Below, one piece after another: positions 4,687 through 10,005 of a DNA stretch of 10,466 bases. Numbering within the stretch: position 1 is the stretch's first letter; each line of letters begins with the position of its first letter. The notes below the pieces were generated by a model. It saw only the letters and a list, made by a program, of their open reading frames with translations, had not been told where the DNA came from and did not search any database. Location: assembly GCA_934371915.1 (NCBI GenBank), contig CAKROE010000082.1, forward strand, positions 1-10,466, given 5' to 3'. Origin of the DNA: an uncultured Blautia sp. Lineage in GTDB: Bacteria; Bacillota; Clostridia; Lachnospirales; Lachnospiraceae. The position numbers and the translations under genes were made by a program.

Positions 4687-5805
4687 ATGCAGCGAATTTT
4701 TCACACGCCGGAAGGTGTACGCGATATTTATAACGGAGAGTGCAGTCAGAAACATCATCTTCAGACAGAAATCCGCAAGGTATTTGACTCCTATGGATAT
4801 GAAGAGATTGAAACTCCTTCTTTTGAATATTTTGAAGTTTTCAGCAGAGAGGTTGGAACGATTCCGTCCAAGGATCTTTATAAATTTTTTGACCGTGAAG
4901 GAAACACCCTGGTATTACGCCCGGACTTCACCCCGTCTGTTTCAAGGGCCTGCGCCACTTATTTCAATCCGGAACAGGAAGTTGTCACACTGTCCTATAC
5001 AGGAAATACTTTCATTAATAACTCCAGTTATCAGGGGCGTCTGAAAGAAACAACACAGATGGGTGTCGAGCGTATCGGTGATGATTCTGCCGAAGCAGAT
5101 GCGGAACTTCTTGCCATGACTGTAGAATGTCTTCTTAAGTCCGGTCTGAAAGAATTTCAGGTCAGTGTCGGACAGGTGGATTATTTCAAATCACTTCTGC
5201 AGGACGCAGGATTGGATACCGAAGCAGAAGAAAATCTCCGTTCTCTGATTTCTCAGAAGAATTACTTTGGAGTAGAAGATCTTGTGCGCAGCCAGAATAT
5301 CCCGGAAAATCTGGAAAAAGCATTTCTGGAACTTCCTCATCTTTTTGGTTCCGCAGAAGTCCTTGCAAAGGCACGCAGCCTGACAGACAATACCTGTGCG
5401 ATCAAAGCAGTCAAACGTCTGGAAGAAATCTATGAGATTCTGAAAATCTACGGATACGAAAAATATATCAGTTTTGATTTTGGTATGCTCAGCAAACTGC
5501 AGTACTATACCGGAATCATTTTTCAGGCATACACCTATGGAACCGGTGAACCGGTCGTAAAAGGCGGCCGCTACAACGAGCTTCTGAAACACTTCGGAAA
5601 ACCTGCTGCCTCCATCGGTTTCGGACTTGCTGTAGATAATTTGCTCATGGCATTGTCCAGACAGAAGATCAGCCTTCCGGAAAAGAAAGCGCCGGTCATC
5701 CTGACTTATACGGAAGCAAACCGCCGTGAATCCATCCTGGAGGCTCAGGAACTCAGAAGCAAGGGGACATCCGTTGCCCTTCGCCGCGAAAAGGAGGACT
5801 GCTGA
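4687..5805 (+). CDS. hisZ: ATP phosphoribosyltransferase regulatory subunit HisZ
   Basis: This 372-residue paralogue of histidyl-tRNA synthetase binds the short HisG and confers activity and histidine feedback on the first step of histidine synthesis. It keeps the class II synthetase fold: FHTPEGVRDI at the N-terminus, LRPDFTPSVSRA at 77-88, GRLKETTQMGVERIG near 118-132 (motif 2) and GGRYNELLKHFGKPAASIGFGLAVD in the motif 3 region. The loop that reads RGLDYYTG in true synthetases reads SKLQYYTG here, so the aminoacylation arginine is missing, and there is no full anticodon-binding domain after motif 3. Together with hisG directly downstream this identifies HisZ, not HisS. The ATG at 4687 follows GAGGAGGA at 4672-4679. 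The protein ends in a charged ALRREKEDC; the codons of this end carry the hisG ribosome site. Only one base separates its stop from the hisG start. Confidence 0.95.
   Translation: MQRIFHTPEGVRDIYNGECSQKHHLQTEIRKVFDSYGYEEIETPSFEYFEVFSREVGTIPSKDLYKFFDREGNTLVLRPDFTPSVSRACATYFNPEQEVVTLSYTGNTFINNSSYQGRLKETTQMGVERIGDDSAEADAELLAMTVECLLKSGLKEFQVSVGQVDYFKSLLQDAGLDTEAEENLRSLISQKNYFGVEDLVRSQNIPENLEKAFLELPHLFGSAEVLAKARSLTDNTCAIKAVKRLEEIYEILKIYGYEKYISFDFGMLSKLQYYTGIIFQAYTYGTGEPVVKGGRYNELLKHFGKPAASIGFGLAVDNLLMALSRQKISLPEKKAPVILTYTEANRRESILEAQELRSKGTSVALRREKEDC
5791..5798 (+). promoter_or_regulatory. hisG ribosome binding site inside hisZ
   Basis: AAGGAGGA lies in the last codons of hisZ (Lys-Glu-Asp) and 8 bases before the ATG at 5807. 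It decides the hisG start: the in-frame ATG at 5726 has no such site and would add 27 residues unlike the family. The arrangement should couple translation of HisZ and HisG, which act as one complex. Confidence 0.85.
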
Positions 5806-5806
5806 T

Positions 5807-6448
5807 ATGAGATATCTTACTGTTGCACTTACAAAAGGACGACTTGCCCAGAAAACTCTGGATATGTTTGAAAAAATCGGTATCACCTGTGAGGAGATGC
5901 GTGATAAAGATACGCGTAAACTTATTTTTGTCAACGAGGAACTGAAATTACGGTTTTTCCTTGCAAAAGGTCCTGACGTACCTACCTATGTTGAGTACGG
6001 TGCCGCTGATATCGGTGTTACCGGCAAAGACATCATCCTTGAAGAAGGACGCAAAATGTATGAAGTCATGGATCTCGGTTTCGGAAAATGCCGTATGTGC
6101 GTCTGCGGACCGGAAAGCGCCCGTGAGCTTTTGCAGAACAACCAGCTGATCCGCGTGGCAACCAAATATCCGAATATTGCCAAAGATTATTTTTATAATA
6201 AGAAACATCAGACAGTAGAAATTATCAAACTCAATGGTTCCATCGAACTTGCTCCGATCGTCGGACTGTCGGAAGTGATCGTTGATATTGTAGAAACAGG
6301 AAGCACACTCCGCGAAAACGGACTGAATGTTCTCGAGGAAGTCTGCCCGCTTTCCGCAAGAATGGTCGTCAATCAGGTCAGCATGAAAATGGAAGATGAA
6401 CGAATCCGCAATCTGATCCGTGATCTTCGAAATGTAATTGATAAATAA
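5807..6448 (+). CDS. hisG: ATP phosphoribosyltransferase, short form HisG
   Basis: This 213-residue enzyme joins ATP and PRPP to form phosphoribosyl-ATP, the first committed step of histidine synthesis. It begins MRYLTVALTKGRLAQKTL, the standard HisG start, with GAADIGVTGKDII at 65-77 and the PRPP-binding loop DIVETGSTLREN at 160-171. It ends soon after the catalytic domains and lacks the C-terminal histidine-binding domain of long HisG (about 290-300 residues), so it needs HisZ, encoded just upstream, for regulation and probably for activity. The start at 5807 is chosen because of the strong ribosome site at 5791-5798 and the family N-terminus. hisD follows after about 20 bases. Confidence 0.96.
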   Translation: MRYLTVALTKGRLAQKTLDMFEKIGITCEEMRDKDTRKLIFVNEELKLRFFLAKGPDVPTYVEYGAADIGVTGKDIILEEGRKMYEVMDLGFGKCRMCVCGPESARELLQNNQLIRVATKYPNIAKDYFYNKKHQTVEIIKLNGSIELAPIVGLSEVIVDIVETGSTLRENGLNVLEEVCPLSARMVVNQVSMKMEDERIRNLIRDLRNVIDK

Positions 6449-6459: not shown

Positions 6460-6468
6460 ATGAGCACA

Positions 6469-7770
6469 ATGCGTACAGTAGCACTCACAAAAGAAAGCAC
6501 AAAAGATATTCTGGAAAATCTCCTGAAACGAAGCCCAAATAACTACGGCAAATTTGAATCTGCTGTTGACGAGATTCTTCACAAAGTAAAAACCGAAGGC
6601 GATTCCGCCCTTTTTGCCTATACGAAAGAATTTGACAAAACCGAAATTACCGCAGATACGATCAAAGTCACCGAAGAAGAGATCAAAGAAGCTTATGAAG
6701 CTGTTGACCCGGCACTGATCGATGTCATCCGCAAAGCACTGGTCAACATCAGAAGCTATCATGAAAAGCAGAGACAGAACAGCTGGTTCACCAGTGAAAC
6801 AAACGGAACCATGCTCGGTCAGAAAGTAACCGCACTTGAAAGAGTCGGCGTATATGTACCGGGTGGCAAGGCAGTATATCCTTCCTCCGTTCTTATGAAC
6901 ATTGTACCTGCCAAAGTTGCAGGTGTTGACCAGATCGTTATGACCACGCCTCCGGGAAAAGACGGTAAAGTAAACCCGTCCACACTTGTTGCCGCAAAAG
7001 AAGCCGGTGCTGATGAGATCTACAAAGTCGGCGGTGCACAGGCGATCGGTGCTCTTGCCTACGGTACAGAAAGCATCCCGAAAGTTGACAAGATCGTAGG
7101 ACCCGGAAATATTTTTGTTGCTCTCGCAAAAAAGGCCGTATATGGATATGTCAGCATTGACTCTATCGCAGGACCAAGTGAAATCCTTGTCCTTGCCGAC
7201 GAAACCGCAAATCCAAGATATGTGGCAGCAGACCTTCTTTCACAGGCAGAACACGATGAACTTGCTTCCGCAATTCTGATCACCACAAGTAAAGAATTTG
7301 CTGCAAAAGTCAGCGAAGAAGTGGATGGTTTTGTCAAAATTCTTTCCCGTAAAGAGATCATCCGGAAATCTCTTGACAATTTTGGCTACATCCTGATTGC
7401 TGAAGATATGGACGAAGCAATTGAAGCTGCAAATGCCATTGCTTCCGAACATATGGAAATCGTAACTGCCAATCCGTTCGAAGTTATGATGAAAGTACGT
7501 AATGCAGGTGCTATCTTTATCGGAGAAAACAGTTCTGAACCTCTCGGTGATTATTTTGCAGGACCAAACCACGTTCTTCCGACAAACGGAACCGCGAAAT
7601 TTTTCTCCGCACTTTCTGTCGATGATTTTGTCAAAAAATCAAGTATCGTATATTATTCAAGAGAAGCACTGCGTAAGATTCACAAGGACATCGAGCAGTT
7701 TGCTACATCCGAACAGCTGACCGCACACGCAAATTCCATTGCGGTACGATTCGAAGACGAAGAACAGTAG
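6469..7770 (+). CDS. hisD: Histidinol dehydrogenase
   Basis: This 433-residue zinc enzyme oxidises L-histidinol to L-histidine with two NAD+, the last two steps of the pathway. Landmarks are RVGVYVPGGKAVYPSSVLMN at 125-144, KVGGAQAIGALAYGT at 186-200, GPGNIFVALAKK, GPSEILVLAD at 235-244, and SEPLGDYFAGPNHVLPT at 356-372. By match to E. coli HisD, the zinc ligands are Gln259, His262, Asp361 and His420 and the catalytic pair is Glu327-His328 (ASEHMEI); all are present within one residue of E. coli numbering. The start at 6469 is preferred over the ATG at 6460 because of the ribosome site at 6453-6459; the longer form would add only Met-Ser-Thr. hisB begins 11 bases after its stop. Confidence 0.96.
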   Translation: MRTVALTKESTKDILENLLKRSPNNYGKFESAVDEILHKVKTEGDSALFAYTKEFDKTEITADTIKVTEEEIKEAYEAVDPALIDVIRKALVNIRSYHEKQRQNSWFTSETNGTMLGQKVTALERVGVYVPGGKAVYPSSVLMNIVPAKVAGVDQIVMTTPPGKDGKVNPSTLVAAKEAGADEIYKVGGAQAIGALAYGTESIPKVDKIVGPGNIFVALAKKAVYGYVSIDSIAGPSEILVLADETANPRYVAADLLSQAEHDELASAILITTSKEFAAKVSEEVDGFVKILSRKEIIRKSLDNFGYILIAEDMDEAIEAANAIASEHMEIVTANPFEVMMKVRNAGAIFIGENSSEPLGDYFAGPNHVLPTNGTAKFFSALSVDDFVKKSSIVYYSREALRKIHKDIEQFATSEQLTAHANSIAVRFEDEEQ

Positions 7771-7781
7771 GAGGAAAAGCC

Positions 7782-8372
7782 ATGGCAAGAGAAGCTTCTG
7801 TAGAACGAAACACCAAAGAAACTGAAATCAAATTAAAACTGAATCTTGACGGAACCGGTTACTCAGATATTGAGACCGGCGTCGGATTTTTTGATCATAT
7901 GCTGGACGGTTTTACCCGTCATGGACTTTTTGATCTGTCCGTACGGGTACACGGTGATCTCGAAGTAGATGATCATCATACGATCGAGGATACGGGTATT
8001 GTCCTCGGTAATGCGATCAAAGAAGCCATCGGAGATAAAAAAGGTATCCGCCGCTATGGAAGCTGTATTCTGCCTATGGACGAAGTTCTGGTGCTGTGTG
8101 CCATTGATTTATCCGGACGTCCTTATTTTTCATGGGATGCAGAATTTACCTCTGAAAAAATCGGAGACATGTCCACTGAAATGGTAAAAGAATTTTTCTA
8201 TGCCATTTCTTATTCCTGTGGAATGAACCTGCATATCAAAGTGCTTACCGGCGGCAACAGCCACCATGTCGCAGAAGCAATGTTCAAAAGCTTTGCAAAA
8301 GCTCTGGATCAGGCTGTTTTTTATGATCCGCGTATCACAGATGTACTCTCTACCAAAGGAAGTCTTGCATAA
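7782..8372 (+). CDS. hisB: Imidazoleglycerol-phosphate dehydratase
   Basis: This 196-residue manganese enzyme removes water from imidazole glycerol phosphate to give imidazole acetol phosphate. It has the two metal-binding repeats of the family: GFFDHMLDGFTRHGLFDL at 35-52 with DDHHTIEDTGIVLG at 63-76, and EMVKEFFYAIS with GNSHHVAEAMFKSFAKALDQA at 158-178. Substrate residues lie in MDEVLVLCAIDLSGRPY at 99-115, and the C-terminus STKGSLA is close to the family's STKG end. It is the monofunctional type, without the phosphatase domain that enterobacteria fuse to it; histidinol phosphatase must be encoded elsewhere. The ATG at 7782 is preceded by AGGAGGA, which overlaps the hisD stop codon. hisIE begins 15 bases after its stop. 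In most his operons hisH, hisA and hisF would be nearby; none is present here. Confidence 0.96.
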   Translation: MAREASVERNTKETEIKLKLNLDGTGYSDIETGVGFFDHMLDGFTRHGLFDLSVRVHGDLEVDDHHTIEDTGIVLGNAIKEAIGDKKGIRRYGSCILPMDEVLVLCAIDLSGRPYFSWDAEFTSEKIGDMSTEMVKEFFYAISYSCGMNLHIKVLTGGNSHHVAEAMFKSFAKALDQAVFYDPRITDVLSTKGSLA

Positions 8373-8387
8373 GGAGGAAATTCAGCC

Positions 8388-9671
8388 ATGGCAGATAAAT
8401 TATTGATTCCCTGTCTGTATCTGCAGTCCGGAAAAGCAGTCACTGGTTTCGGTCAGAGAAACCTGTTCGGTGACGGAAATACGGAAAATCTTGTCCGTTT
8501 TTACAGAGACAATGGGGCCGATGAACTTCTTATTTTTGATATTTCTTCCGGAGACGCAGAGCATGAACAGGCCATCTCCAATATTAAGAAAATCTGTTCT
8601 GCTGCCGAGATTCCTGTTATGGCAGCAGGCAATATCAACCGTATGGAAGATGTCAAAAAGCTTCTTTATGCCGGCTGTACAAAGGTCGTTCTGAATTTTT
8701 CAAAAGCAAATAATATTTCACTTCTTGAAGAAGTATCCAAACGTTTCGGCAAAGAAAAAATGGCAGTCTGTATTTCTTCTACGGAAGAATTCACCGCAAA
8801 CCAGGCATTGATCGAGTCATTTGCAGATGAAGTCCTCGCACTTGATACCATCCAGGATGAAATTCATGCATGTTCCGCTATCAAAATCATCCTTCATACA
8901 GAAGTAAGTAAGACTGCCGCACTTAAATCTCTGCTCCATAAGGATTCTGTGTATGCTTTAAGCGGTGCTTATATCAGCTCTCTTGATATTTCTCTTCAGG
9001 ATTTCAAGGCAGACTGTAAAGCTGACGGAATTCCTGTGGTTACTTTTGAGAGTGCTATTGCATGGGCTGATTTCAAACTGAACAGTGACGGACTGATTCC
9101 GGTAGTCGTTCAGGATTATAAAACCGATCAGGTACTTATGGTCGCATATATGAATGAAGAAGCTTTCAATAATACACTCAAAACAGGAAAAATGACATAC
9201 TGGAGCCGGAGTCGTCAGGAACTCTGGCTTAAGGGCCTTACGTCCGGTCATTTCCAGTACGTCAAGTCACTTGCTCTTGACTGTGACAACGATACGATCC
9301 TTGCAAAAGTAGATCAGATCGGAGCGGCCTGCCATACCGGAAGCAGAAGCTGTTTCTTCAAGTCTCTGGTTCAGAAGGAATACAACGACACAAATCCACT
9401 TCATATATTTCAGGATGTGTATGATGTCATTGCCGACCGCAAACTGCATCCGAAGGAAGGCTCCTATACCAACTATCTCTTCGATAAAGGCATCGATAAA
9501 ATCCTCAAGAAAGTAGGAGAAGAGTGCACAGAGATCATCATTGCCGCCAAGAACCCTGACAAAGAAGAAATCAAATACGAGATTTCTGATTTTCTGTACC
9601 ATGCCATGGTTCTTATGGTCGAAAAGGGAATCACCTGGGAAGAGATCACCACCGAACTTGCCAGAAGGTAG
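8388..9671 (+). CDS. hisIE: HisIE with N-terminal degenerate HisF-like domain
   Basis: This 427-residue protein has three parts. Residues 1 to about 217 align almost without gaps to the first half of HisF ([41 protein letters not shown]) and more loosely to the second half. The two catalytic aspartates of HisF (11 and 130 in the Thermotoga enzyme) are Tyr11 and Ser130, GGGI is AGNI, and loops after strands 5 and 6 are shortened. Residues ~225-325 are phosphoribosyl-AMP cyclohydrolase (HisI): [18 protein letters not shown] at 271-288, magnesium residues Asp298, Asp300 and Asp302, zinc cysteines 299, 315 and 322. Residues ~335-427 are phosphoribosyl-ATP pyrophosphatase (HisE): EExxE at 378-382 and ExxD at 398-401. 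Steps 2 and 3 should thus be intact, while the front domain should be inactive as a cyclase. The ATG at 8388 follows AAGGAGG at 8371-8377. An ordinary HisIE is about 200-220 residues. Confidence 0.93.
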
Positions 9672-9672: not shown

Positions 9673-9681
9673 TAATTGCCA

Positions 9682-10005
9682 ATGAACAATTTCGACTATC
9701 ATCTGCTCGCCAATTTTCAGGATTTTTTTATCCGACACAGGGGAGTGTATATTTATCTGATCATCATAAATCTTGTCACATTCGCTGTGTTTGGAATTGA
9801 TAAGTTTAATGCGATACATCATCGTTCAAGAATACGGGAGGTTACACTTTTCAGACTTTCTCTGATCGGCGGCTCCATCGGCGGACTGGCGGCAATGTAT
9901 CTGTTTCGCCATAAAACACGAAAGCTTAATTTTATATTGGGTATTCCCCTCATCCTTTTTGTACAAATAATTATATTGTTTTTTGCAATAAACACCGGAT
10001 GGTAG
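9682..10005 (+). CDS. DUF1294 family small membrane protein
   Basis: This 107-residue protein belongs to the DUF1294 family, recognised from NLVTFAVFGIDKFNAI at 30-45, SRIREVTLF at 49-57, LIGGSIGGLAAMYLFRHKTRK at 61-81 and FILGIPLIL at 84-92. Three hydrophobic segments are visible, at about 21-38, 57-75 and 84-103, with a basic loop (HHRSRIR) after the first and another (FRHKTRK) after the second. The function of the family is not known to me; some homologues carry a cold-shock domain in front, which is absent here. The start at 9682 fits the ribosome site at 9665-9672. It begins 10 bases after hisIE and may be transcribed with the his operon, although nothing ties it to histidine synthesis. 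Confidence 0.88.
   Translation: MNNFDYHLLANFQDFFIRHRGVYIYLIIINLVTFAVFGIDKFNAIHHRSRIREVTLFRLSLIGGSIGGLAAMYLFRHKTRKLNFILGIPLILFVQIIILFFAINTGW

Follow-up and report, generated by a model that had tools for sequence, protein, structure and literature searches.

The window (the whole stretch of DNA that we analyzed, 10,466 nucleotides long) contains a run of histidine biosynthesis genes, the last of which encodes a protein of three fused parts (Table 1). A gene for a DUF1294 protein lies immediately after it, at 9676-10005.

Table 1. Histidine genes of the window and parts of the fused protein, numbered from the first nucleotide of the window.
Feature	Position	Strand	Basis
hisZ, upstream operon gene	4687..5805	+	TIGR00443, 312.4 bits
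hisG	5807..6448	+	TIGR00070, 208.6 bits
hisD	6460..7770	+	TIGR00069, 557.6 bits
hisB (imidazoleglycerol-phosphate dehydratase)	7782..8372	+	NF002111, 284.0 bits
Whole gene, pseudo-HisF + HisI + HisE	8388..9671	+	open reading frame, 427 aa (stop included)
Pseudo-HisF (beta-alpha)8 domain, residues 1-217	8388..9038	+	PF00977, HisF alignments, AlphaFold2, Foldseek, tree
N-terminal half-barrel, residues 1-130, strongly constrained	8388..8777	+	median dN/dS 0.079
Codon 11, Tyr replacing the HisF catalytic Asp	8418..8420	+	alignments; relatives
Helix 3 patch, residues 85-96 (R85, E87, D88, K90, K91, Y94)	8640..8675	+	faces outward by hydrophobic moment; surface kept or lost with HisE in genomes
Codon 130, Ser replacing the second catalytic Asp; Ser not conserved in the family	8775..8777	+	alignments
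C-terminal half-barrel, residues 131-217, shortened, fast-evolving	8778..9038	+	median dN/dS 0.174 (131-215); reduced or deleted in relatives
HisI (PRA-CH), residues 227-331, intact	9066..9380	+	PF01502, 123.4 bits; NF000768, 168.3 bits
HisE (PRA-PH), residues 342-427, intact	9411..9668	+	PF01503, 78.8 bits; TIGR03188, 106.6 bits

A degenerate HisF barrel in front of HisIE

Residues 1-217 of the fused protein are a degenerate HisF barrel, joined to intact HisI and HisE domains. The first-pass annotation had made this claim for a dead, shortened HisF-like domain in an open frame, and profile searches bear it out. Specifically, the 427-aa protein matches PF00977 at residues 6-145 (E = 2.2e-22), PF01502 at 251-324 and PF01503 at 342-427; residues 231-427 score 271.2 bits against the HisIE family NF002747, for which the cut-off is 187 bits, and the HisE acids E378, E379, E382, E398 and D401 are conserved. 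Searched alone, residues 1-217 again match PF00977 (residues 6-148, E = 5.1e-23). They stay below the cut-offs of other families, with 78.4 bits for hisF (TIGR00735, cut-off 294.55), 51.8 bits for HisA (TIGR00007, 228.95) and, for the acetamidino family WbuZ/HisF2, 87.5 bits (TIGR03572, 299.7) and 77.0 bits (NF038364, 310).

Alignment to HisF structures in the PDB runs without a gap from residue 3 or 4 to residue 130 or 131 (three alignments among the matches listed), as had been noticed at the outset, and the three substitutions pointed out then are all visible: Tyr in place of Asp at position 11, Ser in place of Asp at position 130, and AGNI in place of GGGI. We take Asp11 and Asp130 to be catalytic residues of HisF. 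Past about residue 131 the domain has fewer residues than HisF, so the second half is indeed reduced, although AlphaFold2 (84-sequence alignment, mean pLDDT 90.3) still predicts eight strands in the domain. The predicted model has a (beta-alpha)8 barrel of HisF type; among the best 50 Foldseek rows, HisF and HisF-derived entries match it with target TM values of 0.70-0.77, and HisIE structures match the C-terminal part of the protein.

We examined these positions in 338 relatives, a set made up of database and locus proteins 380-480 aa long; P0017, which joins parts of different relatives, was left out, as were P0016 and P0018, which are close to P0017. Position 11 is Tyr in 265, Phe in 53, a gap in four and Asp in none; in a separate set of 148 loci, a single row has Asp there, next to a gap. 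Position 130 is Ser in 163 and Asp in 89 of the 338 (D130 in 24 of the 148 loci), and N103 is kept in 110 of the 148. The family thus conserves an aromatic residue at position 11 but not the Ser at position 130, conservation of both having been the check first proposed. On the former catalytic face, where the N-half phosphate site of HisF presumably sits, four residues are near-invariant (D51 in 334, S53 in 332, H59 in 329 and G81 in 338 of 338). K19 and the GGGI motif of HisF are mostly lost, and R5 and D98, which we take to be HisH-interface residues of HisF, never vary in 34 free HisF and have mostly given way to other residues in the pseudo-domain (R5 in 10 of 105).

Spread and origin of the fused domain

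Fusion of this pseudo-HisF domain to HisIE is widespread in the bacterial family to which Blautia belongs. Genome contigs scanned for a sequence pattern gave at least 525 places encoding a relative, of which the 80 matches listed are named Blautia, Lachnospiraceae, Eubacteriales and kin; the closest named contig among the matches listed, from Blautia sp. Marseille-P3087 (L001), is 97% identical over residues 1-157. In a set of 298 genomes that we take to be Lachnospiraceae, the family of that strain, a HisI domain is present in 281. Sorted by length, not by identity, the HisI-bearing open frames reach at least 412 aa in 196 genomes, 300-411 aa in 37 and 175-299 aa in 13, and are shorter than 175 aa in 35. 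Frames of 300-411 aa are a mixture of eroded pseudo-HisF-HisIE, pseudo-HisF-HisI and intact HisA-HisI fusions. No domain stands before HisI in 30 of the 183 HisI-bearing frames read, outgroups included. The idea that plain HisIE is absent from the family is wrong: of the 13 frames of 175-299 aa among the 281, twelve belong to genomes that have canonical HisA, and the thirteenth (G227) is HisI alone in a long frame.

Several other arrangements occur. Intact HisA is joined straight to HisI, without pseudo-HisF or HisE, in L092, L093, L100, L112, L113 and L115, and two frames of more than 600 aa (L102, L103) carry HisA, pseudo-HisF, HisI and HisE. The HisI match drops to 24.4 bits in L237 (G118) and 88.5 bits in L238 (G108), with pseudo-HisF and HisE still there. 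A single genome (L107, 3130-4407, + strand) has an open frame in which intact HisF (382.0 bits) is fused to HisI; this HisF groups with the HisF of canonical operons in a tree, and the frame may picture a possible ancestral HisF-HisI fusion.

In a tree built on 129 columns, the 42 pseudo-domains included group in a single clade (99/86) whose sister clade holds 20 HisF (99/96), with 16 HisA outside; the branching order beside HisF is uncertain because the columns are few and the branches long. An origin from HisA was considered, and tree and profile scores favour HisF instead. Gene order is informative as well. The order hisA-hisF-hisI(E) with an intact hisF is found in L105, L109-L111, L114, L120-L123 and L187-L191, and a HisA-like frame directly precedes pseudo-HisF-HisI(E) in 17 loci, at frame distances of -100 to 195 bases (L089, L090, L091, L097, L098, L108, L116, L117, L124, L129, L140, L141, L144, L150, L159, L173 and L181). 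Because hisA adjoins both arrangements, the domain fills a former hisF slot.

Could the domain stand in for a missing HisF? In 73 domain-bearing genomes, chosen by sequence for a check of HisF and HisH, all 73 have HisH and all 73 a free HisF, which rules this out. Free HisF scores above the cut-off in 71 of them, and the two below it either end at a contig end (G201) or reach 282.3 bits (G242). Domain and HisF share the fold, the gap-free stretch of residues 3-131, the slot between hisA and hisI, and a sister-clade relationship; in contrast to HisF, the domain lacks Asp11, has a short C-terminal half, scores below the family cut-off and is redundant with the free enzyme.

By profile scores, HisA too has been exchanged in these genomes: the eukaryote-type protein (TIGR02129) is above cut-off in 212 of 298 and canonical HisA in 64. 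Both types occur in G030, G034, G055, G065, G232, G252 and G254, and in six of these the canonical one falls short of its cut-off, which would fit decay following a replacement. In G242 and G244 the fusion gene is adjoined by a weak HisA (BLAST, 134 and 146 bits). Canonical as well as eukaryote-type HisA is found alongside frames of at least 412 aa.

Uneven constraint and the helix 3 patch

Median dN/dS, for pairs with dS of 0.15-1.2, is 0.079 over residues 1-130, 0.174 over residues 131-215 and 0.043 over HisIE; these are simple Nei-Gojobori counts, with several pairs near saturation, on 32 pairs of which 31 are distinct (the pair of window and L001 is doubled, L083 being the same locus). Between the window and L001 the values are 0.086, 0.159 and 0.036. 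Ten far relatives are 50-56% identical to the window over residues 1-130 and 16-31% over residues 131-225, and in some relatives the C-terminal half is reduced or deleted. Together these comparisons show an N-terminal half under purifying selection and a C-terminal half that is eroding. Constraint of this kind had been named as a check on the proposal that the region is kept for a reason other than cyclase chemistry, and the proposal agrees with it as well as with the wide spread, the single clade and the free HisF and HisH of all 73 genomes. With the fold kept in the predicted model, a catalytic residue lost, purifying selection and a single-origin clade, the domain has the marks of a putative pseudoenzyme.

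The domain stops after helix 4 in 11 relatives of 315-325 aa. For one of them, AlphaFold2 (14 sequences, whole-protein pLDDT 77.5) predicts beta1 to alpha4, with block pLDDT of 79-92 in the half-barrel save for two blocks at 73 and 67. We predict that these 11 short relatives keep a half-barrel only. All 11 retain E87, K90 and Y94, and one has R91; D51, S53, H59 and G81 are invariant also in an alignment that includes the half-barrel forms.

One surface of the N-terminal half stands out. With helix faces assigned by hydrophobic moment, entropy averages 0.41 bits over the outward face of helix 3 (E87, D88, K90, K91, Y94 and A95) in 105 thinned family members. The inward face of this helix averages 1.72 bits, the corresponding outward face in 34 free HisF 1.56, and the other seven helices of the domain 2.34-3.37 on their outward sides. 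The entropies of helices 5-8 are upper values because the alignment is poor there; helices 1, 2 and 4, at 3.14, 2.66 and 2.34 bits, are the better controls.

In genomes, the residues of this patch go with HisE. We compared 167 genome-derived domain-bearing proteins, a set that omits two repeats (L083, L241), one locus without the domain (L235) and one that ends at a contig end (L127): 160 have HisE and seven lack it (L087, L089, L157, L165, L171, L227 and L228), a count that includes near-identical rows and perhaps a few genomes entered twice by different locus numbers (for example L078 and L137). Where HisE is present, Y94 is found in 159 of 160, K90 in 159 and K91 in 157; among the seven without it, Y94, K91 and R85 are found in none, K90 in one and E87 in four. 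Structural residues persist in these seven (P76 and G96 in all; D45, G81, D88 and G121 in six each). E115 (three of seven) and F120 (two of seven) also fall, so some general relaxation is mixed into the loss of the patch. The full patch is kept in six HisE-bearing proteins in which the rest of the domain is equally eroded (L091, L094, L103, L128, L168 and L172), and three proteins with HisE (L133, L163 and L238) have half of the four patch residues left.

On a tree of 97 thinned rows with the patch columns removed, HisE presence changes six times, at least five of them on supported branches; the tree itself gives no direction, and we infer that the changes are losses. The patch state, by a strict rule, changes eight times, two of these without loss of HisE (L163, L238). 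Across five independent pairs, HisE and patch shift together in nearly all of 200 pairings (sign test on the five pairs, p = 0.0625). Taken together, the alignments show that in genomes the near-invariant helix 3 patch is associated with the presence of HisE. Mean-field DCA (338 sequences, effective number 145) finds its strong pairs within domains, the signal between the domain and HisIE being weak and scattered; the method is blind to invariant residues because these cannot covary. W417 and N389 are among the HisE residues fixed in the pseudo-HisF family and not in 11 plain HisIE proteins, and these and similar residues are candidates for the HisE side of a helix 3 contact.

Genomes without HisE extend the pattern. 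PF01503 is missing genome-wide at E 0.001 in 38 of 45 genomes picked for their short frames (G237, G234, G046, G285, G159, G211, G290, G054, G018, G025, G296, G153 and G291 among them); the other seven have PF01503 in the frame and are pseudo-HisF-HisIE. The 38 comprise 25 with HisI alone, most of them classed by frame length only, six with HisA-HisI and seven with pseudo-HisF-HisI. Since PF01503 is missing in all 38, step 2 of histidine synthesis is without a known enzyme there. PF03819 was considered as a substitute for HisE and is not a consistent one, since 20 of 30 genomes tested among these 38 have no PF03819 match, and a look by eye near HisI in L104, L106, L112 and L115 found no obvious candidate for a replacement. 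Within the clade, according to this survey, absence of HisE goes with absence of the domain or loss of the patch, and presence of HisE with retention of both; plain HisIE with hisF upstream falls outside the pattern.

Among 248 database proteins, 14 have the patch but no HisE that can be recognised. P0009 and P0154 end before HisI is complete, and nine others have cut or frameshifted tails. The remaining three (P0018, P0024 and P0105) end in frame after HisI with an intact patch; they are single sequences on metagenome contigs of 1533, 2021 and 1961 bases, and each could be a chimera, a case of recent loss or a genuine exception. The metagenome proteins P0017, P0018 and P0105 seem to be joined from parts of different relatives, and are probably assembly chimeras or recombinants.

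Possible roles of the retired domain

We propose that a retired HisF has been retained to serve HisE in docking or assembly, a reading drawn from comparative sequence evidence to which we give a probability of roughly 0.54. In this scenario hisF, in an ancestral hisA-hisF-hisI-hisE order, would have become fused to hisIE, and the cyclase job would have passed to a separate HisF partnered with HisH. Helix 3 (R85, E87, K90, K91 and Y94) would then be a docking surface for HisE, in the same chain or across subunits; the dead barrel would brace HisE or take part in its assembly, and HisE would have come to depend on it. Docking by helix 3 would explain why the barrel could shrink to a half-barrel that still bears this helix, and why genomes without HisE have either no such domain or one that has lost its patch. 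In its favour we counted the association of patch and HisE, the hisF slot, the single clade, the constraint on the N-terminal half, the erosion of the C-terminal half and the loss of Asp11; against it we counted the three metagenome proteins that keep the patch without HisE, the weak covariation between the domain and HisIE, the small number of independent pairs, the patch changes in which HisE stays, the general relaxation seen at E115 and F120, and plain HisIE (11 proteins; solved structures), where HisE functions with no domain of this kind.

A bolder form of the proposal is that helix 3 completes the active site or dimer interface of HisE, making the dead HisF essential to HisE, and that some lineages have trimmed the domain to a naturally occurring (beta-alpha)4 half-barrel, which may pair up again to form a barrel across the HisIE dimer. 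We offer this only tentatively. The (beta-alpha)4 half-barrel is the postulated ancestor unit of TIM barrels.

Three roles had been suggested at first for the domain: a docking platform for other histidine enzymes, a sensor, and a folding aid for HisIE. The comparative evidence favours assembly or docking within HisIE, tied to HisE; it speaks weakly against a pocket sensor, in that half-barrels persist, and against a platform for HisH. Docking by helix 3 leaves the near-invariant D51, S53, H59 and G81 unexplained, and this keeps a sensor alive as a rival. The old catalytic face of the dead barrel (these four residues and N103) would bind a phosphorylated pathway compound or nucleotide and signal to HisI or HisE, and the constancy of the four, in half-barrel forms too, on a face that presumably holds the N-half phosphate site of HisF, speaks for such a sensor. 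However, the Asp of beta1 is gone, much of the C-terminal half is eroded, half-barrels have no closed pocket, and the residues that track HisE sit on helix 3 rather than on the top face, and we consider a sensor unlikely.

If the domain were instead passive ballast, HisIE after the fusion would need it for folding or solubility, and its conservation would reflect packing only. Erosion of the C-terminal half, cut back in some lineages, the 30 of 183 frames with no domain before HisI and the patch kept without HisE in three metagenome proteins would all suit ballast. Against it stand an outward face of helix 3 that is more conserved than the inward one and a patch that goes with HisE in genomes more than nearby structural residues do; we hold ballast to be quite unlikely.

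HisF binds HisH, and a HisA-like frame adjoins the fusion gene in the 17 loci listed above, so the domain might be pictured as a docking platform for HisH, free HisF or HisA in a metabolic complex. Yet the presumed HisH-interface residues R5 and D98 are mostly replaced in it, long frames coexist with either type of HisA, and the patch tracks HisE, which makes a platform improbable. Continued catalysis, perhaps ProFAR isomerisation or other chemistry, is hardly credible: D51, N103 and D130 remain in part of the family, but Asp11 is missing in 338 of 338, D130 is not conserved, half-barrels persist, a complete HisF is present elsewhere in all 73 genomes, and most have HisA of either type.

Compared with known HisIE (NF002747), the window protein is alike in residues 231-427, which pass the cut-off, and in its conserved HisE acids; it differs in an extra N-terminal domain of 217 residues that is missing in the 11 plain HisIE proteins and in structures such as 6j2l and 7bgn. 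Some of this has precedents. The passage of PMC9413887 at hand names hisF, hisI and hisE among genes that underwent fusions and, unlike the findings here, contains nothing on catalytic-residue loss, HisE coupling or half-barrels; hisF-hisI-hisE is not among the five his fusions listed in the part of PMC1963479 consulted. In Roseburia, passages of PMC7478625 report a similar split of his loci with a gene called hisEI and name no extra domain, and an excerpt of PMC9026213 puts HisE in brackets in its pathway table. Laboratory-made HisF half-barrels, a (beta-alpha)4 unit, are cited in excerpts of PMC8250049 and PMC5770038; in contrast to these, the natural forms fused to HisIE are known from sequences and one predicted model. 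Our literature searches, which covered few subscription journals, found no description of the dead domain, the HisE coupling or the half-barrel forms. A hisF-hisI-hisE fusion is thus already in print, and the dead domain with HisE as its inferred partner is the addition.

These results have implications for annotation, where database entries label the protein plainly as HisIE. Pseudoenzyme domains are known, but what they work with is often a matter of guesswork. In the present family HisE is naturally absent more than once, and these cases indicate both a partner and a surface, so that the role of a dead enzyme becomes testable by three substitutions. The family also forms a natural gradation, with eroded barrels at one end and half-barrels at the other, that is relevant to how TIM barrels arose and how they can be dismantled. 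If the bolder form of the proposal is true, one enzyme of the histidine pathway would have turned into an essential part of another.
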